Assembly: GCA_016290215.1 (NCBI GenBank)
Contig: JAEETH010000036.1
Location: 1-34,869 of the forward strand
Direction: 5' to 3'
From: Bacteroidales bacterium
GTDB taxonomy: Bacteria; Bacteroidota; Bacteroidia; Bacteroidales; F082
Length of the DNA: 34,869 nt
In this document: piece by piece, positions 2,930 through 24,454 of the stretch
Position numbering within the stretch: position 1 is the first letter of the stretch
Layout: every line of letters starts with the position of its first letter
The notes under the pieces: generated by a model
The model's database searches: none
What the model saw: the letters and a program-made list of their open reading frames with translations, nothing else
What the model was told of the DNA's origin: nothing
Program-made: the position numbers and the translations under genes

Positions 2930-5391
2930 GAAAGACCTTGTTTTTATTGGCCTTCTTGCTTGGTTGCATAGGCTTAAACGCGCAAAACTACCACATCTAC
3001 CTGCATAAAACGGGAACGGTGATTTACAACAACGATGTGAACACCATCAGCGATATTCATTTCGAAGGCAGTCAGCCCGCCAACATGCTCATCAACGCGG
3101 AAAACGGCGACATTGCCTTACCCATCACTGCTTTCGACAGCATCACTTTCGAGAGAAAGCAAGAACCACCTGCGGGCGACACGGTTTATATCACTTACAA
3201 CGGTTCAAGCGTGAGTGTTATCAACCCTTTCGCCAACGATGGCGTGACGGTTTCAACGGATAATGCCAATGTAACGGTGAGTTCCACCAAGGCTAATGTG
3301 CCATACGTCGTTTCGGGCAATTCTTCCAACGGCTCGTTGACGATGTACAGCACTTCATCCTTCTATTTAGCACTCAGCTCACTCACGCTGACCAGCGGCA
3401 GCACCGCAGCTATCAATTTGGCATCTGAAGTTGCAGTAACACTTGCCTTAAGAGGAACAACCAATCTTGCCGACAATGCCAACAGCACCATCAACGGTGC
3501 CCTTTATGCCGCAGGCAGCCTCGCCATTGGCGGTTCAGGCATCTTGCGTGTCACGGGCAACAGCAAGCATGGCATTTCGGTTGACGGTAACATGACGGTC
3601 AACTCGGGCAACATTAACATTCTTAGTACCGACAGCGACGGCATACATGGCAGTAGCAACTTGGTTTGGAATGGTGGCACGCTCGACATCGCCTCGGCGG
3701 GTTCCGATGGTCTCGACTTTTCGGGCACCGTCTCCATCGGCAACGGCAACCTCAGCATCAACACCACTACGGAAACCCAAAGGAGCATTAAGGTGACTGG
3801 TGTCTTCACCATGTACGGCGGCTCGCTCAGCATGAATGTGACTGGCAACGACTGCAAAGGTATCAAGGGCGACGACAACGTGATTCTAAATGGCGGCATC
3901 ATCGACCTTCAAGTGGCGGGCGAAGGCTCAAACGGCATCTCCAGCGATACCGACGTCACCATCAGCGGTGCCGACATCACCATCGTCTCGACGTCTGCCG
4001 ATGGCAAGGGCATCAAGAGCGACAGCACCTTCCACATGAGCAGCGGCAGCCTCAACATCACCCATTCGGGCAACACCTCCAAAGGCATCGCTGCCGACAG
4101 CGACCTCAGCATCAGCGGCGGCACCATCGTCATTAACTCTAACGGCACCACAGTGGTAACCGACTACGACCCGTCCTACTGCACCGCCATCAGGAGCGAC
4201 AGCAACGTGAACATCAGTGGCGGCGACATCACCATAACACTCCCGGCCTCCAACCAAGGTGGCAAGGGCATCAAGGCCACAGGCAACATGACGATAAGCG
4301 GCAATAACACCATCAACATCACAACGCATGGTGACGGCGCCACCTACACCGCCTCAACGGGCACCGACACCTATTCCAGCTCATGCCTCCGCAGCGAAGG
4401 CGACATGCAGATACTGAACGGCAACATCACGCTTACCTCTACTGGCAAAGGCGGCAAGGGCATCAAAGTGGGTACCCAAACCGCGACAGGCAGCGGCTGG
4501 GGTGGCACCACTTACACCTACTCAGGCACCTACACGCAAGGCAGCCCCGATGGCACCGGTCCTACCCTCACCATTTCCACCACTGGAACGCAGGTAGGTT
4601 CAGGTGGTGGTGGCGGTTGGCCTCCAGGACCTGGCGGTGGCGGTTCCTCGTCGGCAAGTGCCTCGGCAAAAGGTATCAAAGTGTGTGGCCTTGCGACAAT
4701 TTACGGCGGTACCACCACGGTGACAACCACCAAAAGTGGCGCCGAAGGCTTGGAATCGAAAACGCAAATCAACATTGAAGGCGGTCAACATTACTTCAAA
4801 TGCTACGACGACTGCATCAACTCGAAAGGCAAGATATTATTCAACGGCGGTGTGACCGTGTGCTTCAGCAACGGCAACGATGCCATCGACTCGAATGCAG
4901 GCACGGCGGGAGCCATCACCATCGGCGACGGCGTCGTGTTCTCTTACACTACTAAAGGTAGCCCTGAAGAAGGCTTCGACTGCGATAACAACAGTTACAT
5001 CCGCATCACTGGCACTGGCATCGGCATCAGTGCAGGTGGCTCGCAAGGCGGCGGTGGCGGCTGGCCTGGAGGAGGCGGCGGGAACACCATTACTGGTGCT
5101 GTTCAAGGCTACTACTTCCACACCAGCAGCTATAGCTTCCAAGCGGGAAGATACTACACCCTGTCGAACACCAGCGGAGCAGGCGGCACCAACATGGTGA
5201 CGTTCAGCTTCGAGGCCAACTGCTCAAGCAACTTAGCCCTTATCACGGCGACGGGCATGGCACATGGAAGCACCTATTACGTGAAATACGGCTCTTCGGC
5301 ACCCACCAACCCGACAACGGCCTTCCACGGAATCTACCTCGGAGGAACTTCCTCTGCATCGACACAAGCCTTTAGCTTTACTGCACAATAA
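2926..5391 (+). CDS. Large exported beta-helix protein, Cthe_2159-type carbohydrate-binding domain
   Basis: An 821-residue protein with a signal peptide (ending LNAQ) and a small N-terminal domain (to about residue 80) similar in pattern to that of the preceding gene. Residues about 130-560 are a repetitive series of the type 'G-N-M-T-I-S-G-G-x-I-N-I ... K-G-I-K-S-D', the signature of right-handed beta-helix proteins related to Clostridium thermocellum Cthe_2159 (DUF4353), which binds cellulose and acidic polysaccharides. Two glycine-rich linkers (residues about 556-580 and 706-722) separate a second repeat block and a C-terminal beta-rich domain. No T9SS sorting tail is visible at the end (AFSFTAQ). 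Binding of plant or host polysaccharide at the cell surface is inferred from the family. A strong terminator follows. Confidence 0.8.
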   Translation: MRKTLFLLAFLLGCIGLNAQNYHIYLHKTGTVIYNNDVNTISDIHFEGSQPANMLINAENGDIALPITAFDSITFERKQEPPAGDTVYITYNGSSVSVINPFANDGVTVSTDNANVTVSSTKANVPYVVSGNSSNGSLTMYSTSSFYLALSSLTLTSGSTAAINLASEVAVTLALRGTTNLADNANSTINGALYAAGSLAIGGSGILRVTGNSKHGISVDGNMTVNSGNINILSTDSDGIHGSSNLVWNGGTLDIASAGSDGLDFSGTVSIGNGNLSINTTTETQRSIKVTGVFTMYGGSLSMNVTGNDCKGIKGDDNVILNGGIIDLQVAGEGSNGISSDTDVTISGADITIVSTSADGKGIKSDSTFHMSSGSLNITHSGNTSKGIAADSDLSISGGTIVINSNGTTVVTDYDPSYCTAIRSDSNVNISGGDITITLPASNQGGKGIKATGNMTISGNNTINITTHGDGATYTASTGTDTYSSSCLRSEGDMQILNGNITLTSTGKGGKGIKVGTQTATGSGWGGTTYTYSGTYTQGSPDGTGPTLTISTTGTQVGSGGGGGWPPGPGGGGSSSASASAKGIKVCGLATIYGGTTTVTTTKSGAEGLESKTQINIEGGQHYFKCYDDCINSKGKILFNGGVTVCFSNGNDAIDSNAGTAGAITIGDGVVFSYTTKGSPEEGFDCDNNSYIRITGTGIGISAGGSQGGGGGWPGGGGGNTITGAVQGYYFHTSSYSFQAGRYYTLSNTSGAGGTNMVTFSFEANCSSNLALITATGMAHGSTYYVKYGSSAPTNPTTAFHGIYLGGTSSASTQAFSFTAQ

Positions 5392-5413
5392 AAGCCAAAG
5401 ACCACTTTATATC

Positions 5414-5453
5414 AAAAGTAGGGCTACCTTTGTAGGATAGCTCTACTTTTTTT
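5414..5453 (+). terminator. Rho-independent terminator after the beta-helix gene
   Basis: A 13-bp stem (5414-5426 with 5438-5450, one G-T pair) has an 11-base loop and is followed by a run of seven T (5447-5453). Confidence 0.85.
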
Positions 5454-5462
5454 CTATTTTTG
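5429..5462 (+). promoter_or_regulatory. Promoter of the HD-domain gene
   Basis: TATTTTTG (5455-5462) matches TAnnTTTG, and TTTG (5429-5432) lies 22 bases upstream, inside the terminator loop. The ATG is at 5471, so the leader is only a few bases long. Confidence 0.55.
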
Positions 5463-5470
5463 CAAACATT

Positions 5471-6100
5471 ATGACGAAACAGATCGACAAAAACCTAATC
5501 GGTTACATCGAACAGGAAATCCTGCCCCGCTACGACCACTTCGACGCTGCCCACCAACGCAACCATGCCGAGGAAGTCATCGAACGCAGTTTGGGGTTGG
5601 CCGAACAATACAATGTCGACGTTAATATGGTGTATGCCATAGCCGCATACCACGACACGGGACTTTGCGAAGGCCGCGACACCCACCACCTTGTTTCGGG
5701 GCGCATCATCCGCGAGGACACGAAACTGCACGAATGGTTCGATGATGACCAAATCGAGACCATGGCGCAGGCTGCCGAGGACCACCGCGCCTCAAGTGGC
5801 CACGAGCCCCGAAGCATCTACGGCAAAATCGTTGCCGAAGCCGACCGTCTCATCGCGCCCGAAAAAGTCATCCGCCGCACCATCCAATTCGGTCTTGACC
5901 ATCATCCCGAACTCGACAAGGAAGGGCAATATCAACGTTTTCGCGAACATCTGTTGGAAAAATACTCCGACACGGGCTATCTCCGTCTCTGGATTCCCAA
6001 ATCGGACAATGCGGCACGTTTGGAGGAATTAAGAGCCACCATCCGCGACGAAAATGCCATGCGCGAAGCTTTTGAAAACGCTTATTCAAAATTGCTTTAG
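5471..6100 (+). CDS. HD-domain metal-dependent phosphohydrolase
   Basis: A 209-residue cytoplasmic protein with no signal peptide. The HD-superfamily metal ligands are in order: H32 (QRNH), H61-D62 (YHDTG), H105 (EDH) and D125 (EADR). Members hydrolyse phosphate esters, often of nucleotides; the substrate cannot be read from this sequence. The spacing of the motifs is that of small stand-alone HD hydrolases. The gene is probably monocistronic: a terminator ends the upstream operon and the next gene has its own -7 element. Confidence 0.85.
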   Translation: MTKQIDKNLIGYIEQEILPRYDHFDAAHQRNHAEEVIERSLGLAEQYNVDVNMVYAIAAYHDTGLCEGRDTHHLVSGRIIREDTKLHEWFDDDQIETMAQAAEDHRASSGHEPRSIYGKIVAEADRLIAPEKVIRRTIQFGLDHHPELDKEGQYQRFREHLLEKYSDTGYLRLWIPKSDNAARLEELRATIRDENAMREAFENAYSKLL

Positions 6101-6186
6101 GCAAGAAAAACGGCAAAAAAAACAGTATTTTAATATCTGGTTTCGATTTTTTCATATTTCTTGCGAAGCAATCCAAAATAAATCGG

Positions 6187-6194
6187 TATTTTTG
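6187..6194 (+). promoter_or_regulatory. Bacteroidota -7 promoter element
   Basis: TATTTTTG matches TAnnTTTG 22 bases before the ATG at 6217. A -33 element is not convincing. Confidence 0.5.
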
Positions 6195-6216
6195 CAACTT
6201 ATTAAACATTACGAAA

Positions 6217-7107
6217 ATGAAAAAAACACTTATTACCATGCTGTTCCTCTGCCTCGCAGGCTTTATGATGGCACAGGAAACAAACGAAACTGAATTCAAG
6301 ATGGCTTTGGGCGACACCCTCGTTTGGAAGCCCTTCGACAATTGCGACATGAACGGTTACAGCATCTCTGGGCCTAAAGTCATCAGCTTCAAGGCTATCG
6401 GGATGGGCGAACAAATTCAAATCATTGCAAAGTCGGTTGGCAAGAGCAGCATCATCGCCACTTGCCAAAACAATGACACCGAGGCTGTGGCCAAAATCAC
6501 CGTCGTCGACCCGAACGATGTTCCCGTAGTAGCCGAAAAGCCAGTGAAACCCCAAACATTGCCTTTCACCGAGACCTACAAATTCAACCCGCCCAAAGAC
6601 AACTTCTTTATCACCATCCATGATACGGGTAGCGGATTCAACGACACCTACATGAAGCACGGTGACGACGAGGCCTACAACGACGGACAAAGCTTCGACC
6701 GCTTCTGGAACGTGAAAACCGGTAAAAACTGGTACTACAAGCCCGATGCACAAGGTTGGACCGATGATGTTGACTGGGAGTTTGAGCCCTTCGGAGAGAG
6801 TTTCCCCATCCTCAACTCTTTTGCCAAAGAGGTGGACACAGACAACCTTTCCAACTACTATGTCGGCAACGAAAAAGTCACGGTCGGTAACTCCCATAAA
6901 CCCACGGACATCGATTGCTGGAAGTTTTTCGTTGACTTTGAGGACGGCTCTGTCATTCAATACTGGGTCGACCCCGCCAACGGCTGCACCCTGAAACGTC
7001 AAGTCAACACCGACCCCGCCAAGGTGGTCACGGTGTATGACCTCAAATACACGCGTTTGTATTTTGGTCCTTCATTCAAGAAAGGGCTGCATGATACTAG
7101 GAGATGA
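6217..7107 (+). CDS. Exported protein of unknown function with Ig-like N-terminal domain
   Basis: A 296-residue protein with a clear signal peptide (MKKTLITMLFLCLAG ... MMAQ). Residues about 25-95 look like a bacterial Ig-like (BIG2-type) fold: the G-D-T-L-V-W start, V-I-S-F-K-A strand and final A-K-I-T-V-V-D are typical. The rest (about 110-290) contains aromatic-rich segments such as NWYYKPDAQGW and DCWKFFVDFEDG and is not recognised. There is no T9SS tail and no lipobox, so it is probably periplasmic. The last codons and the TGA stop fall inside a heptad repeat array, so the C-terminus may have been altered by the repeat. Confidence 0.75.
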   Translation: MKKTLITMLFLCLAGFMMAQETNETEFKMALGDTLVWKPFDNCDMNGYSISGPKVISFKAIGMGEQIQIIAKSVGKSSIIATCQNNDTEAVAKITVVDPNDVPVVAEKPVKPQTLPFTETYKFNPPKDNFFITIHDTGSGFNDTYMKHGDDEAYNDGQSFDRFWNVKTGKNWYYKPDAQGWTDDVDWEFEPFGESFPILNSFAKEVDTDNLSNYYVGNEKVTVGNSHKPTDIDCWKFFVDFEDGSVIQYWVDPANGCTLKRQVNTDPAKVVTVYDLKYTRLYFGPSFKKGLHDTRR

Positions 7108-7156
7108 GTTAGGAGTTAGGAGTTTGCAGTTGTTCAGTTTGCAGTTAGGAGTTGTA
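7097..7156 (+). repeat. Heptad-period direct repeat array
   Basis: Degenerate AGTTAGG / AGTTTGC / AGTTGTTC units repeat with a period of 7-8 bases for about eight units. The array contains the stop codon of the gene ending at 7107 and fills the first part of the spacer before gcvT. Confidence 0.8.
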
Positions 7157-7188
7157 GAGCTGTCACAGCGTGGCAGACGATAAACCCA

Positions 7189-7240
7189 GTTGAATTTTGA
7201 ATATTAAATTTTGAATCTTTTATATATTAAATCTTAAATC
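7189..7240 (+). repeat. A/T-rich heptad repeat array upstream of gcvT
   Basis: Units of the type TTGAATT, TTGAATA, TTAAATT and TTGAATC repeat every 7 bases and end 7 bases before the gcvT start codon. A similar array lies at 25488-25521. Confidence 0.75.
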
Positions 7241-7247
7241 CCATAAA

Positions 7248-8363
7248 ATGGAAAACAACGAATTAAAGAAGACCCCTTACAATCAAATCCATCACGACTT
7301 AGGTGCCAAGATGGCTGAATTTGCTGGCTACGATATGCCGATTCAATACACCGGCCTCGTTGAAGAACACAACAACGTCCGCAACAACGTCGGCGTGTTT
7401 GACGTGAGCCACATGGGCGAGTTCCGTGCCAAAGGCCCCATGGCCAAACAGTTCATGCAATACTGCACCGTCAACGACGTGGCCGCTTTGAGCGACGGCA
7501 AGGTGCAATACACCTGCCTGCCCAATGGCAAAGGTGGCATTGTTGACGACATGCTCGTCTACCGCATCGCCGACGACCATTACTTCATGGTGCCCAACGC
7601 CGCCAACATCGACAAGGACTGGGCTTGGATGAGCCAGATTGCCGAAAAGTTCGGCATGACCCTCGGTGAAGACTTCAAGAACGAGAGCGAAGAATGGGCA
7701 CAGTTGGCCGTGCAAGGCCCCAACGCCTTGAAAGCCATGCAGAAACTCACCAAAGCCAACGTCGTTGATATGGAATACTACACCTTCCAAATCATCAACT
7801 TCGCCGGCGTCGACAACATCATCTTCTCGACCACAGGTTACACCGGTTCAGGTGGTTGCGAGATCTACATCCCCGTCGCCCACGCCAAGGAGGTTTGGGA
7901 CGCCGTCTTTGAGGCTGGCAAGGAGTTTGGCATCATGCCCGCAGGTTTGGGCTGCCGCGACACCCTCCGTCTCGAAAAGGGCTTCTGCCTCTACGGCCAC
8001 GAAATCGACGACACCATCAGCCCCATCGAGGCTGGCTTGGGCTGGATCACCAAGTTCGTTGACGGCAACGACTTCCTCAACCGCGAAATCTTCGCCGCTC
8101 AGAAAGCCAATGGCGTGAGCCAGAAGATAGTCGGCTTCGAGATGATCGACCGTGGCATTCCGCGTAACGGCTACGAAGTGTGCGATGCCGAAGGCAACTG
8201 CATCGGTATGGTGCGCTCGGGCAGCCCGTCACCTTCGACAGGCAAGAACATCGGTACGGCTCTCGTGAAGAAGGCCTTCAGCAAGAAGGACACCGAAATC
8301 TTCATCAAGATCCGCAACAAGCTCATCAAGGCTGTTGTCGTGAAGATGCCATTTCTGCCTTAA
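7248..8363 (+). CDS. gcvT: Glycine cleavage system T protein (aminomethyltransferase)
   Basis: A 371-residue protein that aligns end to end with GcvT. It transfers the methylene group from aminomethylated H-protein to tetrahydrofolate, releasing ammonia, in the cytoplasm. Visible hallmarks are FDVSHMGEF near the N-terminus, the folate/active-site region GGIVDDMLVYRI with the conserved Asp, GYTGSGGCEIY, and the C-terminal barrel with RSGSPSPSTGKNIG. Length is normal. gcvH and gcvP are not in the window, so the operon is dispersed, as is common in Bacteroidales. The upstream spacer consists mostly of two repeat arrays, and no clear promoter was found; a strong terminator follows. Confidence 0.97.
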   Translation: MENNELKKTPYNQIHHDLGAKMAEFAGYDMPIQYTGLVEEHNNVRNNVGVFDVSHMGEFRAKGPMAKQFMQYCTVNDVAALSDGKVQYTCLPNGKGGIVDDMLVYRIADDHYFMVPNAANIDKDWAWMSQIAEKFGMTLGEDFKNESEEWAQLAVQGPNALKAMQKLTKANVVDMEYYTFQIINFAGVDNIIFSTTGYTGSGGCEIYIPVAHAKEVWDAVFEAGKEFGIMPAGLGCRDTLRLEKGFCLYGHEIDDTISPIEAGLGWITKFVDGNDFLNREIFAAQKANGVSQKIVGFEMIDRGIPRNGYEVCDAEGNCIGMVRSGSPSPSTGKNIGTALVKKAFSKKDTEIFIKIRNKLIKAVVVKMPFLP

Positions 8364-8417
8364 TCAAGTTTTTCTATCAAGTTCTTTTTATCAAGAATTT
8401 GGAGAATCTGAGGAAAC

Positions 8418-8449
8418 AATCCCGTTCACTGTCCGTGAGCGGGATTTTT
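8418..8449 (+). terminator. Rho-independent terminator after gcvT
   Basis: A 12-bp stem (8418-8429 with 8435-8446, one G-T pair) has a 5-base loop and is followed by T5, G, T5. Confidence 0.85.
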
Positions 8450-8484
8450 GTTTTTGCTATGGTTGGCGTTCTGCCAAAATTTCC

Positions 8485-8492
8485 GACTTTTG
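8485..8492 (+). promoter_or_regulatory. Possible -7 element of the rhomboid gene
   Basis: GACTTTTG is one mismatch from TAnnTTTG and lies 31 bases before the ATG at 8524, just after the gcvT terminator. Confidence 0.4.
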
Positions 8493-8523
8493 CAGCGGAA
8501 CAATTCTTGATAAACCCAACGAC

Positions 8524-10056: not shown

Positions 10057-11712
10057 TCAATCAATTACAATCATTTCTGTTCTACGATTCAAGGCTCGAT
10101 GCTCATCGGTGTCGTTGGGAGCAACGGGGCGAGATGCACCATAGCCTTGGGCAGTCAACCGATTTCCATCAATACCATTGGATATCAAAGCATCGCGGAC
10201 TGAATCAGCGCGTTCGGAAGAGAGTTTCAAGTTGTAGCTCTCGCTGCCCACATTGTCGGTATGACCTGCCAGTTCCACCTTCAAGTTGGGATTACGCTGT
10301 AAAAAGTTGGTCAGCATCTGTATGCCTTGCTGCGAGTCTTCGGTCAAGGCAGAGCTGTTGTACTCAAACTGGATGTTTTGCAGGACGACTGCATCACCTG
10401 GAGCCAGTTCCACCACATCCACAGTCGCCAAATAGTTGGCGGAATCGGAACGGATGTCCTCTGGCAATTCAAAGGTGTAAATGTCGTAGCCACCATTGCC
10501 GCCTTCCCGTTGCGAAGAGATGAAAGCCGTTTTGCCGTCGGCAGCCACAAAGAAGTTGATTTCATCTCCATTAGTGTTAATGGGGAAGCCCAAATTAACC
10601 GGCTCTTGCCATTTTCCATCCTCTCCCCTACGGCTCATGAACAGGTCGAAACCGCCCATGCCGATGTGCGTGTCGGACGAGAAATAAAGCGTGCGTCCGT
10701 CGGGATGCAAGAAAGGTGCCATCTCCGTGCCTTTAGTATTAATAGGTGTACCTACATTCTGCGGTTCTGACCAGCTACCGTCCGAATTTCGCTTGGCGCA
10801 AAAGATGTCGGCATTATTTCCCGAGCGGCGCGACACAAAGTAAAGTTCCTTGCCATCGCTACTCACGCAGGGCTGCGACTCCCAACTGTTTGTGTTAATC
10901 GTGCCTTTCAGGCTTTGAGGCATCGTCCAAACGCCGTCAATCCATTCCGAAACATATATGTCGCAGCTGGTGTCGCGTCTCCAGCCGCAACCCGTCAGGT
11001 ATAGTTTCTTGCCATCGGCAGAGATGAATGCCGCTCCCGGGTCGATGTCCTCAGGAAAATCGGCGAAAGCAAGCTGTTGGGGCTCAGACCATTGTTCACC
11101 ATCCCATTGGGAAGTAAAGAGAAACTCCTTTTGATAGCCGTTGTCCATGGGCATTTTGCGCGTAAACAACAGCTGCGAGCCGTCAAACGACAGCATGTTC
11201 ACATATTCGTCATTGTTGGAATTAACCCCAACACCTAAGTTGTCGGGCTCGAAGGCGACAGGATGACACACCGCCCAGTCGCGGAAGGTGGCTTTTGCCA
11301 ACAGTTCATTGGCCGTGGCATTATTGGGAGCGTTGTTGAAGCCTTTCGACAAGTACCAGCGTAGCAGGACCATTTCACGCTTGTAACTGCCACGCATGTC
11401 ATAAAGACGTGCCAAGGTGATGGCCGCTGGCGGAAACAGCAGCGAGTCGGACGAAAGGGCGTTTTCATAACCCAACAAGGCCAAATCATAGTCTTTCGTT
11501 TCCATCCCGACCTCACCCTCCAAGAGCCAAGCCTCGGCATAGTTCGGGTCTTCCACCACGGCTTTCAACAGCTGCTGATGGGCTTTTTGATAGTCGCGTC
11601 TCTGAAAAGCTTCTTCCGCTGCCTCGTAGGCTTTCATCGCCTTCTTCGGATGCTGGGCAAAAGCGGTGGAAACTAACGCCACGAACAACAATATTATCGT
11701 TATACGCTTCAT
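10057..11712 (-). CDS. TPR-PD40-OmpA family outer-membrane/periplasmic protein (PorE-like architecture)
   Basis: A 551-residue protein with a signal peptide (ending STAFAQ). Residues about 20-140 are TPR-like helical repeats. Residues about 165-415 are PD40/WD40-type beta-propeller repeats (DGKKLYLTG, DGKELYFVSRRSG, DGRTLYFSSD, DGKTAFISSQREG). Residues about 440-551 are an OmpA C-terminal domain with the peptidoglycan-binding core (GHTDNVGSESYN, LSSERADSV, RRTEMIV). This order matches PorE of the Porphyromonas T9SS, which ties the translocon to peptidoglycan. The carboxypeptidase-regulatory-like domain of PorE is not obvious, and Bacteroidota genomes carry several paralogues, so a T9SS role is only possible. 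The start overlaps the upstream stop by 4 bases. Confidence 0.9.
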   Translation of the reverse strand: MKRITIILLFVALVSTAFAQHPKKAMKAYEAAEEAFQRRDYQKAHQQLLKAVVEDPNYAEAWLLEGEVGMETKDYDLALLGYENALSSDSLLFPPAAITLARLYDMRGSYKREMVLLRWYLSKGFNNAPNNATANELLAKATFRDWAVCHPVAFEPDNLGVGVNSNNDEYVNMLSFDGSQLLFTRKMPMDNGYQKEFLFTSQWDGEQWSEPQQLAFADFPEDIDPGAAFISADGKKLYLTGCGWRRDTSCDIYVSEWIDGVWTMPQSLKGTINTNSWESQPCVSSDGKELYFVSRRSGNNADIFCAKRNSDGSWSEPQNVGTPINTKGTEMAPFLHPDGRTLYFSSDTHIGMGGFDLFMSRRGEDGKWQEPVNLGFPINTNGDEINFFVAADGKTAFISSQREGGNGGYDIYTFELPEDIRSDSANYLATVDVVELAPGDAVVLQNIQFEYNSSALTEDSQQGIQMLTNFLQRNPNLKVELAGHTDNVGSESYNLKLSSERADSVRDALISNGIDGNRLTAQGYGASRPVAPNDTDEHRALNRRTEMIVID

Positions 11713-15634: not shown

Positions 15635-17584
15635 TCATTTTTTTTCTAAAACTACAGGAAAATAAAAACTCTTGCTTTCTGAAGAAGTTGATTTATAGAT
15701 GTAGCCTTTGCCTGGTTCAAATTTACTAAACGTGCCAATCCAATTGCCGTCGGAATACATGGCAATGCCCGTCATCGACTTAATGAAATCGCCGTTGTTT
15801 GGGACAAGGCCTGATAGAGCTTGGTTGAGGCTCATAGACTGCGCCAATGGGTAACCTATCCAGTTGAAGCCGGGTGCCAAAGTAACAGGATGAGTTGATG
15901 GGTCAATAGGTGTACCTCTTACGACCAGTTCCAACTCGGTGCTTGATTCCAACATATACATTTTTATTGGATCGAAGGTCTCCAAATTGCCATCCCAACC
16001 ATAATTAGGCAAATACGAAATGGCACCATCCGAAGTAACCACACTGAGACCTTTATCACCCAAAGCCACCTTAAGTTGCTCCAAATCAATGTCAAGATAA
16101 GTCGACCACCAATTCCATCCACGAGAAATGGTGATGGTTTGCTCAACAAAGTCAGATCCTTCTTCAACCTCGAAATGATGAGGTTCAACGGCTCCAAAAC
16201 TCGGTTGCGAATAGCGGTGACCCGACTCATCGGCTCCGTAGACATAATAATCCACAGATGATCCGTAATGGTAACCTTTGATATAGCCGACATATTCATA
16301 CGGATTGCCCGTGGCGGTCATCTTTGCAGTTTGGTATGCGCCACCATCGATGCGGTAATACACCAAAAGCGAATCTTGCTTGAGGTTTTCTCCGCTGTAG
16401 GCGATGAATTTGGAAGTGATGGCGATGGAATCCTGCATGGGCTGTTCACCAAAAATCACATTGCGATGGTCGACAAAGAGCATGTCGAAGTCCATCACAC
16501 CACGGGTGCGGCAATGCAAAGCATCCGTGTTTTGCCATCCTGTACTGTAATTGCTGTTGGTGACACCGATAATCTCATATCCAGGCAAAGCCTGCTGGTA
16601 AACAGCCAAAGCATTATTGTTATAGGTGCTGTTGCTGCCCAAAGGAACAAAAACCGTATTGTTGAGAATCAAACTGTTAGTATAGGGTGCCAAAGTGGAT
16701 CCACCTGGTTCGTAAACACGGTAAACCTTATAAGGATAGCCCCAGCAGCAGTTGGTATTGGCAAAAAATTCAGCCACTTGCTCGTATTCATCATATTGGC
16801 TGTTGGATTCGGGCAGTTGGGCAATGAGAATCTTGTCGGGAGCCAACAGTTTGCCCCAGCAGTCCACATGGGCGATGTAGTCGCCTTGTGGGTCGATGGT
16901 GATGTGATAAGGATCGATGCCGAGGTAGTCACGCATTTTGTTACGGACATTGGTTTCGTTGTTGTTGTTTTCATTCAAGATAAGTTCATCGGAAACACCA
17001 ACTCCACGACCATCCTCCATCATGTTACCACCCGTATGCGTCAGGTTCATACCATAAACAGTGAGTCCCAACTGTTGTCCCATGTATATTGGAACCATGT
17101 TGTCGTTTTGGCGGGGACGGTTATACACATTGTCCACAATGGCCGGTTCAAGGTCATTAAAAATGTACCAAGGTCCATAGTCGCGCACCCAATAAGAATC
17201 CGTCGACATATTATAATAGGTAATATTGTTCATGTTGCAACCAGCATTTTGGAAAGTGCTATTGGCACTATTCTGTTGGCTTGAAGTTACCAAAACATAT
17301 ACCTTGGTACGTTCAGAGAGTTGTTTTACAAAGCTGGTAGGAATGCCCAGCGGATAACGGATGGTGACCGCTTGCATAGGCTCAAACTCGGCAGGGAATC
17401 GGACATAGTCACCCGAAGGCGGGTTAGTCTCGTTAAAAAGGACACTGCGTTCTTTGGAAAGCATTTCCTCTTCCGAGAGATAATGCAACTTTTTCCAATC
17501 AGGTTTCTTTGTGTCTTGTGCAAAAATCAAAACATTGCCAAAAATCAAAATAAAGGCCAAAAAAATAAATTTCAGTTTTTTCAT
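15635..17584 (-). CDS. Secreted peptidylarginine deiminase-like enzyme (PAD_porph family)
   Basis: Starting at the ATG at 17584, the protein is 649 residues with signal peptide MKKLKFIFLAFILIFG...IFAQ. Residues about 55-390 form a guanidino-group-modifying domain of the PAD_porph/agmatine deiminase family. The catalytic set of P. gingivalis PPAD has counterparts in order and near-identical spacing: D135 (RDYGPW), H239 and D241 (HVDCW), N303 (YTNSLIL) and C358 (ALHCRTRG). An R-x-R pair (R156/R158 in YNRPRQND) matches the PPAD arginines that bind the substrate C-terminal carboxylate. Deimination of C-terminal arginine to citrulline is therefore plausible; agmatine deiminase activity is less likely for an exported enzyme. 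An Ig-like region (about 395-475) is followed by a module (486-649) also found in the neighbouring protease. No T9SS tail is present. It lies 82 bases downstream of the protease. Confidence 0.88.
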   Translation of the reverse strand: MKKLKFIFLAFILIFGNVLIFAQDTKKPDWKKLHYLSEEEMLSKERSVLFNETNPPSGDYVRFPAEFEPMQAVTIRYPLGIPTSFVKQLSERTKVYVLVTSSQQNSANSTFQNAGCNMNNITYYNMSTDSYWVRDYGPWYIFNDLEPAIVDNVYNRPRQNDNMVPIYMGQQLGLTVYGMNLTHTGGNMMEDGRGVGVSDELILNENNNNETNVRNKMRDYLGIDPYHITIDPQGDYIAHVDCWGKLLAPDKILIAQLPESNSQYDEYEQVAEFFANTNCCWGYPYKVYRVYEPGGSTLAPYTNSLILNNTVFVPLGSNSTYNNNALAVYQQALPGYEIIGVTNSNYSTGWQNTDALHCRTRGVMDFDMLFVDHRNVIFGEQPMQDSIAITSKFIAYSGENLKQDSLLVYYRIDGGAYQTAKMTATGNPYEYVGYIKGYHYGSSVDYYVYGADESGHRYSQPSFGAVEPHHFEVEEGSDFVEQTITISRGWNWWSTYLDIDLEQLKVALGDKGLSVVTSDGAISYLPNYGWDGNLETFDPIKMYMLESSTELELVVRGTPIDPSTHPVTLAPGFNWIGYPLAQSMSLNQALSGLVPNNGDFIKSMTGIAMYSDGNWIGTFSKFEPGKGYIYKSTSSESKSFYFPVVLEKK

Positions 17585-17621
17585 AACCAAATAAAAAATG
17601 CAACAGTGTTTGCTCAAAAAG

Positions 17622-17658
17622 AAAAAATGGGCTGAAGCTCACTTTGGAACTCCAGCCC
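17622..17658 (-). terminator. Terminator between the C25 protease and deiminase genes
   Basis: A 9-bp stem (17650-17658 with 17629-17637, one G-T pair) is followed on the minus strand by T6. Readthrough to the deiminase gene, for which no clear separate promoter was found, is possible. Confidence 0.75.
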
Positions 17659-17666
17659 TAAATCAT

Positions 17667-20600
17667 TTATTTCACTACTAGTTTTACAAAATGAGTGGTC
17701 CCATTTCTGTCAGTGATCTTGATAGTATAGACTCCAGCAGTTGGCAAACCTGCCATTGAAAAACGGGTACCGGAAAGAGTTTCGGTACGGACCCTTGTTC
17801 CAAGGGCGTTAAACACCTCGACACTGGCGTCGTTAATCTCGATGTCTGCAGGTATCTCCATGCTGAAAGCCTGACCTTTGTCAACAGGATTGGGGAAGAT
17901 GCTTAGGCTGTTGCTATTGACATGGAGAACGAAGGGGTTCTGCAAATCACCGACCAAAGCGTCAGCGATGAATACGATTTCCTCCTTCACCTCGCGTTGA
18001 ATGTCACCGTCGAGAATCCTAAAGCTGATAGGCTCATTTGACTCGCCGTGGATAGTCATAAAGGCGATGTAGCGTCCCATCTCTGGAATGAGTTGTAGAC
18101 GCATGCTGCCACGACATTCGTTACCAGCAAAAGCGCCAATCTCGATACCGTCATTAAAGGCCTCAGCCCCGTCAATTTCCACCACGGCCATCACATTCAT
18201 GTTGTTCGCGAAGCGAGACGACTCAGGTGTCCAGTAGTTATCTTCAATTGTAATGCTGGCCTTTGCTCCACCTTCTCCGTTAGCCGGATAATAGAAGGTT
18301 TTTTCAGTAGAGGCATAGGAATAATACTTGTATCCTTGTCCAGGTTCCATAGTAAATTCGCTCAACCAAGAAGAGCCGCCCCATGTCGCCATTTGATTCT
18401 TAGACTTGATGATGTCACCAAAAGCTGGGGTAAGATTTGCGAGGGCTTCACTGACGCTCATGCTCTGTTGGACAGGATAACCAATCCAGCTCCAACCATT
18501 TTGATTGATAGTAACAGGAATTTCGGTGGGGTTGAGCGGTAAAGCGCTCAGTGTGAACTCAACTTCTTGACTCACGCTAATCTCGAGCATCATTGACGGG
18601 TCAAGAGCATTCAAATTGCCGTCCCAACCCAATCCTTCAAGATACGAAACCGAACCGTTTGTTGACAAGATGGTGTTGCCATAGTTGCCCAATGCTGTCT
18701 CAAGGTCGTTGAGGCTAATGTCGAGGTTGGTCGACCACCAGCTCCAGCCTTGTGACAGGATAATCTGCTGTTCAGGCTGTTCAGGCTCGGACACCACACC
18801 GCTCAGGCTGACGCTACCAATGAAGTTGTTGCCAGCAGTTGCATTGAGTGTGCCACTATAGCTGCCTGCCTCGAGACCCTCAGCCATGCGAACGTAGACC
18901 GTGGCGGGAGTGATGGTGACAGGCATCTCAATAGTGATGGCGGCATCGGTATCGAGCACGAAGTCGTCAACATTGATATAGAACTGGTCACTGCAATTGA
19001 AGTGACGCACAGCGATATAGCCAGTTTGTCCTGCAAAAGCACTCAGGTCAACTGAGAAATGCTTCCAATCGCCACTCGACAAAGTCCATTCGCCTAACAT
19101 GGTGAAGCTGCTCGCGTTGGTATTTGTGGTGGAGACCAAAATAGCAAAATGCTCGGCAGGATAGGCGGCCTGTTGTGGATGTGCCCACATGGAGAACGAA
19201 CCGCCAAGGGTTACCTGAGGTGAAATCAGCCAGTTGTCGGGGGTTAATACTCCAGCATTGTTGTCGTATGACTGTGAGTAAACAATACCCGTTGAGCCGT
19301 CATGACCACCAAAATCGGTGTTATGCGTCCAGTTGTATCCGTCCCCATCAGCATCAGCGACAGTCCAGCCTTGCAAACCATCTTCGAAGTCCCAGGTTTG
19401 CACATCACGGTTGCGCTTGCTCGTTTCGCGAGGAATAACAACGGATGAAGCGTAAGTGCCATTCTCGTTCAAGCTGATTTCGAAGTTGGCGGGAGCAGTA
19501 ACGGTGATGTCATTGCTGAGGTCAACGCCAACAATGCCAAACTTGTAAGTAGCCGACGGGCCTTGGCCTTCCTCATAGCTGAAGTCGTCAATTTCATCAG
19601 GCGACACGGTTAGCGATTCGGCGCTGCCCGGAACCTTGATGGTGAACTTAATCTGGTTGTTGGAAGTAGAACGAGTTCCAGTGGTGCTTTCAAGTTGATT
19701 GGAGTAGCCAATAACACTGCTATAGTCAGTGGCACTATTGCCTGTACTATAGACATACATGGCTCTGTTAGCTCCAGTGCTATATGTGCTAAATGCCCTA
19801 GAATTATTACCTACCTGCGTAGTGGTTTTGTCCACGACGCAAATATTAAGATTGCTCGTGCCATCATATTCGAAAGGTGTATCTAAAGTGATGGTAGCCC
19901 AATTGTTAGTGAAGCTAACACTACCCGAATACACCTTGGCTACCGAACCCATGACCTCCCAATCCGTGGTGGAACTAAAAGCTGTCTTGTCAGTGTGAGC
20001 CATGTAAATGTCGAGATTACGGGTAACACTTCCATTGGCTTTGAACGCTATAGCGGTGATTCTACCATTATAACCAATCTCGGCGGCAGTGTAAATCTGC
20101 TGCGTAAGGGAATGACAAATAGTTCTCCTATAAACATAAGTTGGGAGATATGAATTTGTGCTAGTGCCGTTACCAACGGTTTGCTCATGCTCCTCTTCCG
20201 TCACGAAAACGGCCATCACGGTCACATCGCTTGAAGGCATAAAGAACCAACTGTTATTCACCACTGCGATCACATCCCTCGGGCTGCCGGTCTTATAAAC
20301 ATACCAGGCCTCAAAGACGCAACCATTATTAGGTGTAGCAGTCAAAGTAACAACATCGCCAGGTTGCAGTTGTTCAGTATGGTCAGCGCTTACAGTGCCA
20401 TTAGGAGTTTGGTTCAGAGTGACCATGAAACCTTGTGAGAAGGCGGCAGTCACAGTCACATTGCTCTCAGGCATGGTGAACTGGTCGTTGGTCACCACAA
20501 CAGTTTGGTTGTTGGCATCAACCACATTCCATTCCACAAAGAAATAGCCGCTCTCTGCCGCGACACTCAAGGTAACCACATCGCCAGGATAAGCTGTTGC

Positions 20601-23600
20601 CAGGTCAGCAGTGATGGTGCCACCCTCGACTTGGTTGACGGTGACATTGTACTGAGGTATCTCTTCGAAGATGGCCGTGTAAGTAGCGGCATTGTTCACT
20701 TGGAAAGTGTAAGGATTGGCTGTGGAAACGATGTCACCACCCAGCTGCCATCCAGCGAAAATATAGTGCTCGTTAGGTGTGGCAGTCAGCGTACAGTTGC
20801 TGTTTTCATAATAGGTGCCAGCGCCAGTGACATTACCACCCACTGCGGGACTGGCATTGACCGCGATACTATATTGTTCACCACTGCCAGGAATGACGGT
20901 GCCGATGAGTGCGACCGTGGCTGAAGTTGTGCTCGAAGTCAAGGTCAGGTTGCCGTTACATGTGCCAGGAGTGTTGGAGTTCAGGCGGACATATACATTG
21001 GAACGAACGCTACCGTTGGAAGGTGTCAATGTCAACGAACTATTGTAAGTGCCATTTTGCGTGGCGCATACCTCATAGCCATTGGGAGCTGTGATGGTAA
21101 GGTTGGTTTGGAGGTTGTTTCCAATAACGGACATGCTTTGCGGCTCGGAGGCCATGCCTGCAATGGCGTTGAAGCCGCTCAAACTCGTGGGTGACACAGA
21201 GAGATAGCCTTCGGCGCTCGGAACTTCTTTGGTAAGCATTATCTGGTTATTGCTCGTAAGAAGGTTGTTATTGGAGGAGGCGGAAATTGAGGCAGGATTA
21301 AAGTCCGTATCATCTTGATATGTATAGTGTGCTCTGTTTGCACCTGTTGAATACACATAGAAAGACATTTTACTGCTAACCCAAGAATCGGAGTTGTCGT
21401 CAACGGTGATGAGCAGGTTGTCCGTGCCGTTATACTCAAAAGGTGTGTCAAGAGGTATGACATTCCAGCCTGTCTGACCAAATGTCTGATAACCTTGAAC
21501 GACACGATAGCTTGTGCCTTGTGCTACCCAGTCGGAGGTGGAGGAGAAACTATTCTTGGAAGTGTGCGACATATAAATGTCTATTGTCCTTTGATTAGGA
21601 TTTGCTGAAACATAGAATGCAATTTGGGTGATTGTTCCAGCCTCACCTACCTCGGCTTTAGTATAGATTTGTTGTGTCAGACTAAAATCATAATAGTTAT
21701 AGGTGGGAATATATTGGCTTGTACTCGTTCCGCTACCAATAGTCACATCGCCACCTGCTGGCTTGCTGAAAATGGCACTCACGGTGACAGGATAGTTGGG
21801 CATGGTAAAGCTATTGCCGCTCACGCTAACGGTGGTATTCACATCGCCAGTCTTATAGACAACCCAGCTTTCAAAGTTGTAACCGCTGGCAGGTGTAGCC
21901 GTCAGGTTGATAGTGTTGCCTTGAAGGGCATACACAGGGTCGGCACTGATGGTGCCATTCATCACCGAGGCCAAAGTGACTTGCAAGCCTGGGACGAAGG
22001 TGGCAGTCACAGTCACATCGCTCTCAGGCATGGTGAACTGGTTGTTGGTCACTGTGATGCTGTGGTTGTTAGCATCTCTCACATCCCATGCAGAGAGGCA
22101 GTAACCCATTTCGGGAGTGGCGGTCAGCGTTACCGTCGAGTTGGCATAGGCCTGTTCAGGGGCGCTGATAGTGCCGTGTTGAGGTTGGGTGCAAGAAATG
22201 TCGTATTGCGTGCCACCAACAACACTGATGGTGCCAAAATAGGGCTGGTATTGTTGACGGGTGACAACCACATAGAGTGTGCCATAAGTAGGAATGGCAT
22301 TGGTGAAGTTCACGGTAGCAACGCCCGATGAATTGGCCTCGGCAACGCCGTAGATGACCGAGCTATTGTCGGTAACGGAGACATAGGAACCCGCCAAAGC
22401 GTTAACCGTAATGGAGGAAGTACCAGGGGTGACCGTACTGGGTATCGTCACGGTGTTCGTTTCCGGCTTGGTGATATAAGGCATAATAGAACCGTCACCA
22501 AAGGTGTGGTAGAACTGGAAGTAATAGTGAGCAGAGTTGTTGCAGTTACCATCAGTGATGCCACTAGTGGTGTTACCATTGGTGACGGCTTGCTGCACGG
22601 CGAGGTTACCGACATAAAGTAATCCCGATGCCGAGTTCCAGTATTGGTCTTGGAACATAACATCGTAAACGCCTTTCGATGAGGCTGTGTTTGTAGGATA
22701 ATTGCCTGCCGAATATGAGTGCGCTCCGACTGCCCAGTAGAAGTCTTCATACCAATAGGAATAAGGAGAGCAACCTACGTAAACCACAGCACCTGCGTTA
22801 GGCACGCGAATCATCGTTTCTGCAAAGCAGGCATTGGTACCTATGGCAGAACCAGGTGAATAGGTGGTCATGGTGCTGTTGAAGTTACCCGTCAAGCAGC
22901 AGTTGCCGACACCAAAGAAATACTTGCCTGTGTTGGAAAGCGTGGCCACTTGGGCTGCTGTCATCAAAGGTTGAGTCCATTCCTGCTTGTCGCCATGGGC
23001 AGTGTAGTTCAAGAAGCACACACCGTTGTTGATGCCTTGGTAAACACCATTGTTGCTGCCACTGTAACCTTGAGATGACGATGTTGAAACCGTAGCACTA
23101 ATGGTGCCGCTGCCAAAGCCACCATACGTGGTGTTGCTTGACTTGAAGTAATAGTTTGTACCGTAGTTGATGGTCGGTTTGGCAACTTTAGGTGTCCAGT
23201 TCGAATCCCAACCGCCAACGAGGATAACATTGTTCAAATAATTGCCACCATCAGAAAACTCATATTTTTCATAAGTTAACACCTTATTAATATAGTTGGT
23301 CAAGTGTGTGGTGTTCTCCACCGAAATACGGCTATAGTACATGTCGGGGAAGTAGTTGGTTGTATTGGAAGTCGTGAAGTTGACAGCAGCGTAGCCAAGG
23401 TCGGAAGCACAGTTTCCAATGTCGGAATCTATGTTTTTGTTCATGTATTGAGGAACCTGTCCAGTGTCACCAATCACAATCAGATAAGTGTAGGCATTGC
23501 CATCCGAGACAGATGCATTGTATTTTGTCTTGATGAAGTTTTGTATGTTAGTGGCTGTCGTTCCTGTCTCATCGGTATAGTGGATGTCAACATAATAGCC

Positions 23601-24413
23601 CTTCTGCAATTTCCACTCCAACCAGCTATTAAGAGCTGCGTTGTTCTTGAAGCCCGAATAGCAAATCACGAGCATCTTAACAGGTGTGTTGTAAAGATCG
23701 GGATGGTCGGTATAGACATCCGCTACAGCTCTGCCATTGAATAGCTGTGCATAAACGGGTTCAAAAGCTGGGCTGTAAGTCTTCAGCAGCATGTCTTCGG
23801 TAGCTTGTGTATCGGCGCCATCGAAGTGAACGGTAACTTCAATGTCATTGAACACACGGATGGTGTTGTTGACGGGGTCATAGCTCATGGGCTCGATGAT
23901 CATCGTTCCAAGTTGGATGCCACGCATCCTGCCTTCCACATTGACAACCGCTGTGGGTTCAGAACGCAAGCCACGAGTTTGGTAAGCAGCATCATTCATG
24001 ATGAATGGCACGTCTTCCGGTTTTTGGTCTTTACGCACAGAGGGTTGGCGCGGCACCAAAGTCTTCATGTCGTAGTCAGCAAGACGATAGTCTGTGACGC
24101 TGTAGCTCGTGACTTCAATGCGCGGGGTGGCACCGAAAGGAACGGCGATAAGTTCATTCACGACGGGAATCTGAGGATCACCCACATTGCCGCCGAGTAC
24201 AGTGTTGGGCAGGCTGAGCCATGAGAAAGTCCCACGCTCACTTTCGTAATCCTGCGCTTCGATAGTAGAGAACGAAAACGAAGCCTTGAGGCTCGTCATG
24301 TCGCTCTTCACACATTCGGCCTTATTGGCTGAACGTAGCTGGAGAGTTTGCTGTGCCATTGCAGTGACGCAAAATGCCACCAACAGCATTGAAAATAACA
24401 GTCTTTTCATCAT
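17667..24413 (-). CDS. Giant gingipain-family (C25) cysteine peptidase with adhesin-like modules and T9SS tail
   Basis: The ATG at 24413 (or the next codon, 24410) gives about 2248 residues with a signal peptide; a longer TTG start is rejected. Domains in order: gingipain-type propeptide (25-235), C25 catalytic domain (240-650) with His473 (TAHGDKQ) and Cys506 (GNCCLTGNF, 33 residues on, the same spacing as in RgpB and Kgp), Ig-like domain (652-733), five Flg_new/InlB-type repeats (737-885 and 1178-1410), two copies of a roughly 180-residue beta domain (889-1063, 1412-1595), two BACON-like domains (1070-1177; 1600-1873, split by a cleaved-adhesin domain at 1665-1823), a W-W-S ... G-x-G-Y module (1885-2043), an EIGAFAGNECRG domain (2050-2165) and a T9SS sorting domain (2170-2248). 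It is expected to act at the cell surface. Arg or Lys specificity cannot be read from the sequence. Confidence 0.93.
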   Translation of the reverse strand: MMKRLLFSMLLVAFCVTAMAQQTLQLRSANKAECVKSDMTSLKASFSFSTIEAQDYESERGTFSWLSLPNTVLGGNVGDPQIPVVNELIAVPFGATPRIEVTSYSVTDYRLADYDMKTLVPRQPSVRKDQKPEDVPFIMNDAAYQTRGLRSEPTAVVNVEGRMRGIQLGTMIIEPMSYDPVNNTIRVFNDIEVTVHFDGADTQATEDMLLKTYSPAFEPVYAQLFNGRAVADVYTDHPDLYNTPVKMLVICYSGFKNNAALNSWLEWKLQKGYYVDIHYTDETGTTATNIQNFIKTKYNASVSDGNAYTYLIVIGDTGQVPQYMNKNIDSDIGNCASDLGYAAVNFTTSNTTNYFPDMYYSRISVENTTHLTNYINKVLTYEKYEFSDGGNYLNNVILVGGWDSNWTPKVAKPTINYGTNYYFKSSNTTYGGFGSGTISATVSTSSSQGYSGSNNGVYQGINNGVCFLNYTAHGDKQEWTQPLMTAAQVATLSNTGKYFFGVGNCCLTGNFNSTMTTYSPGSAIGTNACFAETMIRVPNAGAVVYVGCSPYSYWYEDFYWAVGAHSYSAGNYPTNTASSKGVYDVMFQDQYWNSASGLLYVGNLAVQQAVTNGNTTSGITDGNCNNSAHYYFQFYHTFGDGSIMPYITKPETNTVTIPSTVTPGTSSITVNALAGSYVSVTDNSSVIYGVAEANSSGVATVNFTNAIPTYGTLYVVVTRQQYQPYFGTISVVGGTQYDISCTQPQHGTISAPEQAYANSTVTLTATPEMGYCLSAWDVRDANNHSITVTNNQFTMPESDVTVTATFVPGLQVTLASVMNGTISADPVYALQGNTINLTATPASGYNFESWVVYKTGDVNTTVSVSGNSFTMPNYPVTVSAIFSKPAGGDVTIGSGTSTSQYIPTYNYYDFSLTQQIYTKAEVGEAGTITQIAFYVSANPNQRTIDIYMSHTSKNSFSSTSDWVAQGTSYRVVQGYQTFGQTGWNVIPLDTPFEYNGTDNLLITVDDNSDSWVSSKMSFYVYSTGANRAHYTYQDDTDFNPASISASSNNNLLTSNNQIMLTKEVPSAEGYLSVSPTSLSGFNAIAGMASEPQSMSVIGNNLQTNLTITAPNGYEVCATQNGTYNSSLTLTPSNGSVRSNVYVRLNSNTPGTCNGNLTLTSSTTSATVALIGTVIPGSGEQYSIAVNASPAVGGNVTGAGTYYENSNCTLTATPNEHYIFAGWQLGGDIVSTANPYTFQVNNAATYTAIFEEIPQYNVTVNQVEGGTITADLATAYPGDVVTLSVAAESGYFFVEWNVVDANNQTVVVTNDQFTMPESNVTVTAAFSQGFMVTLNQTPNGTVSADHTEQLQPGDVVTLTATPNNGCVFEAWYVYKTGSPRDVIAVVNNSWFFMPSSDVTVMAVFVTEEEHEQTVGNGTSTNSYLPTYVYRRTICHSLTQQIYTAAEIGYNGRITAIAFKANGSVTRNLDIYMAHTDKTAFSSTTDWEVMGSVAKVYSGSVSFTNNWATITLDTPFEYDGTSNLNICVVDKTTTQVGNNSRAFSTYSTGANRAMYVYSTGNSATDYSSVIGYSNQLESTTGTRSTSNNQIKFTIKVPGSAESLTVSPDEIDDFSYEEGQGPSATYKFGIVGVDLSNDITVTAPANFEISLNENGTYASSVVIPRETSKRNRDVQTWDFEDGLQGWTVADADGDGYNWTHNTDFGGHDGSTGIVYSQSYDNNAGVLTPDNWLISPQVTLGGSFSMWAHPQQAAYPAEHFAILVSTTNTNASSFTMLGEWTLSSGDWKHFSVDLSAFAGQTGYIAVRHFNCSDQFYINVDDFVLDTDAAITIEMPVTITPATVYVRMAEGLEAGSYSGTLNATAGNNFIGSVSLSGVVSEPEQPEQQIILSQGWSWWSTNLDISLNDLETALGNYGNTILSTNGSVSYLEGLGWDGNLNALDPSMMLEISVSQEVEFTLSALPLNPTEIPVTINQNGWSWIGYPVQQSMSVSEALANLTPAFGDIIKSKNQMATWGGSSWLSEFTMEPGQGYKYYSYASTEKTFYYPANGEGGAKASITIEDNYWTPESSRFANNMNVMAVVEIDGAEAFNDGIEIGAFAGNECRGSMRLQLIPEMGRYIAFMTIHGESNEPISFRILDGDIQREVKEEIVFIADALVGDLQNPFVLHVNSNSLSIFPNPVDKGQAFSMEIPADIEINDASVEVFNALGTRVRTETLSGTRFSMAGLPTAGVYTIKITDRNGTTHFVKLVVK
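18942..19421 (-). other. Cleaved-adhesin domain nested inside a BACON-like domain
   Basis: Residues 1665-1824 of the C25 peptidase (WDFEDGLQGW, NWLISPQV, FAGQTGYIAVRHFN, DDFVLDT) match the cleaved-adhesin/MAM-like fold of gingipain adhesins. The flanks (FEISLNENGTYASS before, TVYVRMAEGLEAGSYSG after) align with the uninterrupted domain at residues 1113-1175 (YEVCATQNGTYNSS, NVYVRLNSNTPG), so one domain interrupts another. Confidence 0.75.
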
Positions 24414-24454
24414 ATTAATTATTAGAATTATTAGGTTAGTTTTTTTCAAGGGTA

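Follow-up and report, generated by a model that had tools for sequence, protein, structure and literature searches.

A PPAD-type deiminase beside a Kgp-type gingipain homologue in a Bacteroidales genome, and a probable gene cluster for extracellular peptide-end processing

Introduction

The closest described counterparts of the enzymes considered here come from Porphyromonas gingivalis, namely the gingipains Kgp and RgpB, the deiminase PPAD and the carboxypeptidase CPG70; their genes are scattered in that organism. The numbers of two P. gingivalis genes, PG0232 and PG1424, agree with such scattering where they are given in PMC5445135, a source which also, in its passages on the enzyme, presents CPG70 as an Arg/Lys carboxypeptidase that processes gingipains. 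For Kgp, PMC6426963 names D516 and T442 as the residues that bind the lysine of the substrate. For PPAD, the active-site passages of Goulas et al. (PMC4487231) describe R152 as indispensable and R154 as the second carboxylate ligand, and report that Y233 clashes with longer substrates, R154 and Y233 together binding the C-terminal carboxylate. As to distribution, three sources (PMC12732937, PMC5445135 and PMC6147916) speak, in the parts that bear on this point, of P. gingivalis or of some Porphyromonas, and a phylogenetic paper (PMC8826395) states that pPAD genes occur more widely than had been supposed; the spread of PPAD alone is therefore not new. A cluster uniting PPAD, gingipain and carboxypeptidase genes is announced in none of the titles and abstract openings of the papers listed by searches of open-licence literature.

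Results

The window, by which we mean the whole stretch of 34,869 nucleotides that was analysed, is one contig (C94; JAEETH010000036.1) of a Bacteroidales genome (GCA_016290215.1) of 3.8 Mb in 153 contigs, rated 85% complete and 3.6% contaminated. On its minus strand the ORF map and Pfam place a PPAD-type deiminase gene (ORF 15635-17617, ATG at 17584), the product of which has a signal-peptide-like start, a PAD_porph catalytic domain (16427-17437; E 2.1e-29), an Ig-like region, and a C-terminal module, here termed MOD (15647-16150), that ends 3-4 residues short of the stop. Structures of PPAD (4yt9, 5ak7) match at 1.5e-102 across residues 61-483, an alignment that takes in both the catalytic domain and the Ig-like region. 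The preliminary description of this DNA had credited the deiminase with all catalytic residues, and the alignment to PPAD bears this out: all nine of the PPAD residues compared are kept, among them the catalytic C351, H236, N297, D130 and D238, the C-terminal-arginine determinants R152, R154 and Y233, and W127. The agmatine deiminase model TIGR03380 scores 53.7 bits against a curated cut-off of 381.8, and agmatine deiminases match only weakly. The enzyme is of PPAD type and carries the determinants for a C-terminal arginine, from which C-terminal citrullination is predicted. It differs from P. gingivalis PPAD in that the latter ends in a T9SS type A domain, whereas a profile scan of the window deiminase found no T9SS sorting domain and MOD occupies its place; in that it sits among gingipain genes; and in having orthologues at 87-92% identity in three relatives of one genus.

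Adjacent to it on the same strand lies a C25 protease gene (ORF 17667-24449, ATG at 24413; ORF map and Pfam), so that the pairing of a His-Cys C25 protease with a PAD_porph deiminase, as first described, is confirmed by the ORFs, by Pfam and by residue alignment. The protease comprises a propeptide, the C25 catalytic domain (22482-23675, minus strand; E 1.1e-48), C25_C, five Flg_new_2 stretches, one Cleaved_Adhesin, MOD (18276-18779, minus strand) and, in the ~200 residues beyond MOD, a T9SS type A domain (35.2 bits). The catalytic His and Cys are both present. Its closest structure is Kgp (4rbm) at 3.6e-101, as against 9.3e-09 for RgpB (1cvr), and C477, H444 and D388 are kept together with the lysine-pocket residues T442 and D516 (Kgp numbering). 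At the position of RgpB Asp163, a marker of specificity type (Asp in the Rgp type), the window protease has Thr, as counted on the 1cvr alignment. An Arg-gingipain identity was rejected on the pocket residues and the best PDB match, and the earlier view of the neighbour as an arginine-cutter falls with it; since it is Kgp-type, the protease should cut after lysine and expose a C-terminal Lys. Across the loci studied, an alignment of C25 domains divides the gingipain-like members into a Kgp type and an Rgp type (Asp163), with other C25 types beside them. The window protease resembles Kgp in its propeptide, catalytic domain and possession of an adhesin domain, and RgpB-like enzymes are among the cluster partners in relatives; it departs from the P. 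gingivalis enzymes in its extra Flg_new_2 repeats and MOD, in its clustering with PPAD and, in relatives, with an M14 enzyme, and in belonging to a genome with 23 C25 matches. The best Pfam C25 matches of this genome are a tandem pair of proteins with long N-termini (G000:C90:6047-10602, L123), and similar pairs occur in many genomes of the genus among the matches listed.

The spacer between the two genes holds an intrinsic-terminator-like hairpin (17629-17658, minus strand) with a 12 bp stem and a T tract, of energy -21.5 kcal/mol and z -4.8; it is among the 10 sites found by a terminator-pattern scan of the region, for which 8.5 were expected.

The common C-terminal module of the two proteins, which the preliminary description had also reported, is real: residues 492-655 of the deiminase and 1893-2056 of the protease (ORF numbering) align over 165 residues with 74 identical (~45%; E 4e-43). 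A module private to this pair was excluded by nine matches in the window's own genome and by its presence in 58 of 71 further genomes of the genus that were searched; at 1e-6 it is found in 70 of 119 genomes, 59 of them of the window's genus, with at least 1-26 matches each there. Searches of Pfam, NCBIfam and the PDB returned no convincing match (the best being 0.0044, for one of 20 members, in Pfam and 0.51 in the PDB), and an AlphaFold model made from the two window copies has a mean pLDDT of 51.5. The module stands at the extreme C-terminus, the position taken by T9SS sorting domains (types A, B and C), yet a type A identity found no support by profile, there being no similarity to five such domains of the window's genome (hhalign probability 0.3%), and the scanned proteins that end in MOD gave no sorting-domain match in Pfam or NCBIfam. 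The Kgp-type, Rgp-type, M14 and PPAD-type proteins of relative G020 all carry MOD and lack a T9SS sorting domain, as does the Rgp-type protein of G018, whereas three MOD-less paralogues in the window's genome do have one; the window protease has both. A gene for the SprA (SprA/Sov) translocon is present in the window's genome.

In a tree of 64 modules drawn from 21 genomes (only those of at least 140 residues were used, which leaves out the module of the G004 deiminase, cut by a contig end), the grouping follows the genome, with 27 changes against a shuffled mean of 50.6 and none of 200 shuffles as low, a contrast which near copies inflate; labelled by kind of enzyme, the tree requires 20 changes, a bare count. 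Modules of G018, G048, G030, G049 and G004 depart from this pattern, and those of the near-identical genomes G018 and G048 group by enzyme. The four PPAD orthologues are 87-92% identical in their catalytic domains and 78-87% in the Ig-like part, as opposed to 37-47% in their modules. Likewise, the M14 proteins of G018 and G066 are 97% identical with modules at 60%, and those of G018 and G048 are 98% identical with modules at 97%. In all four genomes the PPAD module is nearest to the M14 module of its own genome (54, 72, 67 and 68%, against at most 49%; eight M14 modules were compared). Modules of one genome thus tend to resemble each other and to differ from those of other genomes, and although MOD is widespread, this likeness does tie these enzymes together. 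In G021 the signal-peptide-like starts of the PPAD and M14 proteins (L103:8629-10605 and 5139-8513) are nearly identical, so homogenisation may reach past MOD. Nine sampled MOD proteins of G045, a genome with 20 MOD matches on many contigs (e.g. L232), form one clade, and no C25 or M14 domain was found in them.

We examined 80 regions around the higher-scoring PPAD matches together with the window, giving 81 neighbourhoods and 83 PPAD ORFs; stronger matches in G083, G076 and G035:C115 and a split gene in G003 lie outside this set. MOD-bearing PPADs number five (the window, G004, G020, G021 and G061), and a Kgp- or Rgp-type C25 is present in all five of their neighbourhoods against none of the other 76, among which 72 show just PPAD, three show C25 genes of other types and one shows MOD proteins only. 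By hand, the chance of such a split is 1 in C(81,5), or ~4e-8, a figure to be read with the knowledge that the rows are related and that contig ends truncate many neighbourhoods. Nor are the five independent: four of them fall in a single clade, and on the PPAD tree two changes are needed to account for MOD. Most PPADs of the genus have no MOD and are nowhere near Kgp- or Rgp-type genes. Around the five MOD-bearing PPADs, 16 of 18 MOD genes (hand count) encode C25 or M14 proteins; in a convenience sample of MOD ORFs these made up 14 of 39, the remaining 25 being neither, and many other large proteins thus bear MOD.

Adjacency of deiminase and gingipain genes is not limited to the window and is seen in G061, G020 and G004. 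The gene order is Kgp, M14, PPAD, Rgp in G020 and M14, Kgp, Rgp, Kgp, PPAD, Rgp in G061; in G021, PPAD and M14 are followed by a Cthe_2159 protein and three Kgp-type genes, and in G004 two Kgp-type genes precede a PPAD at the contig end (contamination is rated at 8% for G020 and 6% for G004). The PPAD and M14 genes of G020 share 4 nt where the former starts and the latter stops, and the Rgp-type gene begins 28 nt past PPAD as read by eye from the sequence; in G061 two ATGs are candidates for the start, giving a corresponding distance of 27 or 30 nt. The Rgp-type partner in G020 is nearest RgpB (2.5e-83, with Kgp at 2.2e-13), and a further C25 gene of that genome lies at C9:135186-139379. In the window's genome these components are divided, a Kgp-type gene and PPAD being on C94, and another Kgp-type gene with module-bearing M14 and Rgp-type genes on C48; the window itself has no M14 gene, and Rgp-type C25s without MOD occur on further contigs.

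The M14 protein of G020 matches carboxypeptidases D, M and N at 8e-46 to 9e-34, and the motifs NYPWD and RQD do not vary among the four M14 proteins that were aligned. The Asp and Gln of these motifs are the basic-specificity pair of carboxypeptidase D, so that the M14 enzyme of the cluster, with the pocket of Lys/Arg-removing enzymes, is a predicted Lys/Arg carboxypeptidase. It may be set beside CPG70 of P. gingivalis by description rather than by sequence, both being M14 zinc carboxypeptidases and the cluster enzyme being CPD/CPM-like with its basic-pocket Asp and Gln positions kept; unlike CPG70, it carries MOD and adjoins gingipain genes. At 1e-60, M14 matches occur in 98 of the 119 genomes of the genus and order search. 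We studied the loci of the 29 top-scoring matches (28 loci, at least 640 bits, a cut-off picked after the list was viewed), and a Kgp-type gene lies within two genes of the M14 gene in 16 of 23 loci in which the latter bears MOD, as against none of the five in which it does not. Six of the remaining seven MOD-bearing loci reach a contig end within ~1 kb, G015 being the exception.

Downstream of the window deiminase lies the gene for a T9SS-domain protein of 945 aa, here protein X (P0003; 12711-15548, minus strand), with a type A domain at 34.8 bits. Homologues directly follow an Rgp-type gene in G018, G048, G066, G020, G055 and on C48 of the window's genome, and for this reason we assign protein X to the cluster; further homologues are located elsewhere. 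The order Kgp-M14-Rgp-X recurs in G018, G048, G066 and on C48. Elsewhere in the window, the second gene past protein X (10057-11712) encodes a TPR/PD40/OmpA protein resembling T9SS PorE (251 bits, with a cut-off of 600 bits), and a Cthe_2159 carbohydrate-binding protein is encoded at 2926-5391 on the opposite strand; the Cthe_2159 protein in the G021 cluster bears MOD.

PPAD-type enzymes extend well beyond these clusters. Of 119 genomes searched (own, genus and order), 94 have a match with E no higher than 1e-3, including 66 of 72 genus genomes by count of the table (own included), and at the order level 15 of 47 genomes reach 1e-30 or lower; the eight residues tested in the genus and order copies (Y233 lies outside this set) are kept in 80 of 83. 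A genome-contig scan, which may pass over the closest kin of the window, found at least 576 PPAD-encoding stretches, of which the best 80 named loci were studied (Bacteroidales, Lentimicrobium, Marinilabiliales, Saprospiraceae, Cloacimonadota and others, with titles that read as MAGs or uncultured isolates), and all nine residues are kept in all 80. Adjacency of PPAD and C25 as a general rule found no support, a C25 gene lying within 10 kb in four of the 80 best named loci, in none of which could the Kgp or Rgp type be established; ten of the genomes concerned were searched and have 4-49 C25 matches each. In two Cloacimonadota MAGs (L141:9830-16159 and L143:1909-4973) a C25 gene directly follows the PPAD-type gene, that of L141 being of a third type (HRDHG motif) and that of L143 being cut before the active site. 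Second PPAD-like genes in tandem with a normal one occur in G022 (L048:11491-13197) and G016 (L075:3630-5243), with W127 replaced by Phe and R152 by Glu; PPAD cannot do without R152, so these paralogues probably act on another substrate. A PPAD-like protein of 1128 residues in G040 (L092:7328-10711) has Phe in place of R154, and a match in G003 (G003:C3:50865-51844) is split across two frames, reflecting a broken gene or an assembly error.

Discussion

We read the window as part of a gene cluster for extracellular peptide-end processing, in which chains would be cut, trimmed and citrullinated, and would put the probability of this reading at roughly 0.6. Gene content, residues, order, spacing and the course of module evolution are taken directly from the genomes compared. 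In its fuller form (G020 and G061), the cluster encodes Kgp-type, Rgp-type, M14 and PPAD-type enzymes, all with MOD, for which cleavage after Lys, cleavage after Arg, and the activities on the resulting ends are predicted. The activities, export, surface location, co-action and assembly of these enzymes are what we infer, with specificities read from homology. The gingipains would cut proteins at the cell surface, and the M14 carboxypeptidase would take off the new C-terminal Lys or Arg; the deiminase would convert a C-terminal Arg to citrulline with release of ammonia, leaving an end that would be hidden from the carboxypeptidase. MOD may hold the cluster enzymes to one another on the surface, or sort them to it.

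The preliminary description had proposed a dedicated cut-and-citrullinate system outside Porphyromonas, and this stands in part: the deiminase is of PPAD type and its association with gingipains recurs (five of five MOD-bearing PPADs among the 83 PPAD ORFs), whereas the adjacent protease is Kgp-type and a hairpin lies between the genes. A true pair had been seen with the protease type mistaken, and the carboxypeptidase and wider cluster were outside that view. Adjacency alone is not decisive, because the genome has 23 C25 and 4 PAD_porph matches. The neighbour in the window is the Kgp-type enzyme, and the MOD-bearing partner of predicted Arg type is encoded on another contig; the original scheme fits better the relatives G020 and G061, in which an Rgp-type protease gene begins ~30 nt past the deiminase. 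Same-strand adjacency and the common module would also be expected of a dedicated two-gene pair, in which the neighbouring protease exposes a C-terminal Arg for the deiminase, and a Kgp-type orthologue (catalytic domain 88% identical) lies directly upstream of PPAD in G061 too. However, the pocket of the window protease is that of Kgp and not of RgpB, the terminator-like hairpin separates the window genes, and a T-tailed inverted repeat can be seen by eye in the G061 spacer as well, such that we consider a pair of this kind quite improbable. We give very little credence to the notion that free arginine, agmatine or internal arginine has become the substrate of the deiminase, and that the cluster is only a nutrient-scavenging protease array. 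Some related PAD_porph members are agmatine deiminases, and the tandem paralogues in G022 and G016 are without R152 and W127, but the window enzyme retains R152, R154 and Y233, and its agmatine deiminase score is far under the cut-off.

A more general objection is that there is no functional link at all, MOD proteins of every kind piling up by duplication while gene conversion among neighbours evens their modules. The module is indeed multi-copy and widespread, non-peptidase modules also group by genome (as do the nine of G045), and a PPAD gene beside a C25 gene is rare elsewhere (within 10 kb in 4 of the 80 best named loci, and the ten such genomes searched have 4-49 C25 matches each). Against this stand the preponderance of C25 and M14 proteins among the MOD genes around MOD-bearing PPADs (16 of 18) and the recurrence of the Kgp-M14-Rgp-X order in G018, G048, G066 and C48; moreover, the window PPAD module groups with the M14 module of the other contig, at least ~24 kb off by hand arithmetic. 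We therefore regard the absence of a link as unlikely, and prefer the peptide-end-processing cluster. A stronger version of the latter, which we put forward tentatively and hold to be less probable than not, is that MOD acts as a sorting or docking tag particular to each genome, able to take the place of the T9SS sorting domain, and assembles gingipains, Lys/Arg carboxypeptidase and deiminase into one cut-trim-citrullinate surface machine. Under this docking-tag reading, the need to match partners would hold the tag constant in any one genome while setting it apart from those of other genomes, much as with the dockerins of cellulosomes.

In one genus, then, genes for a PPAD-type enzyme, for gingipains of both classes and for a carboxypeptidase occur together, their products having a tail in common. 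The residues for the end-of-chain specificity of PPAD are kept throughout the 80 best named loci, in Bacteroidales, Cloacimonadota and others. MOD is a candidate for a new export or docking module, and a natural gene cluster of this kind opens to direct test the long-standing proposal that PPAD is supplied with substrate by gingipains.
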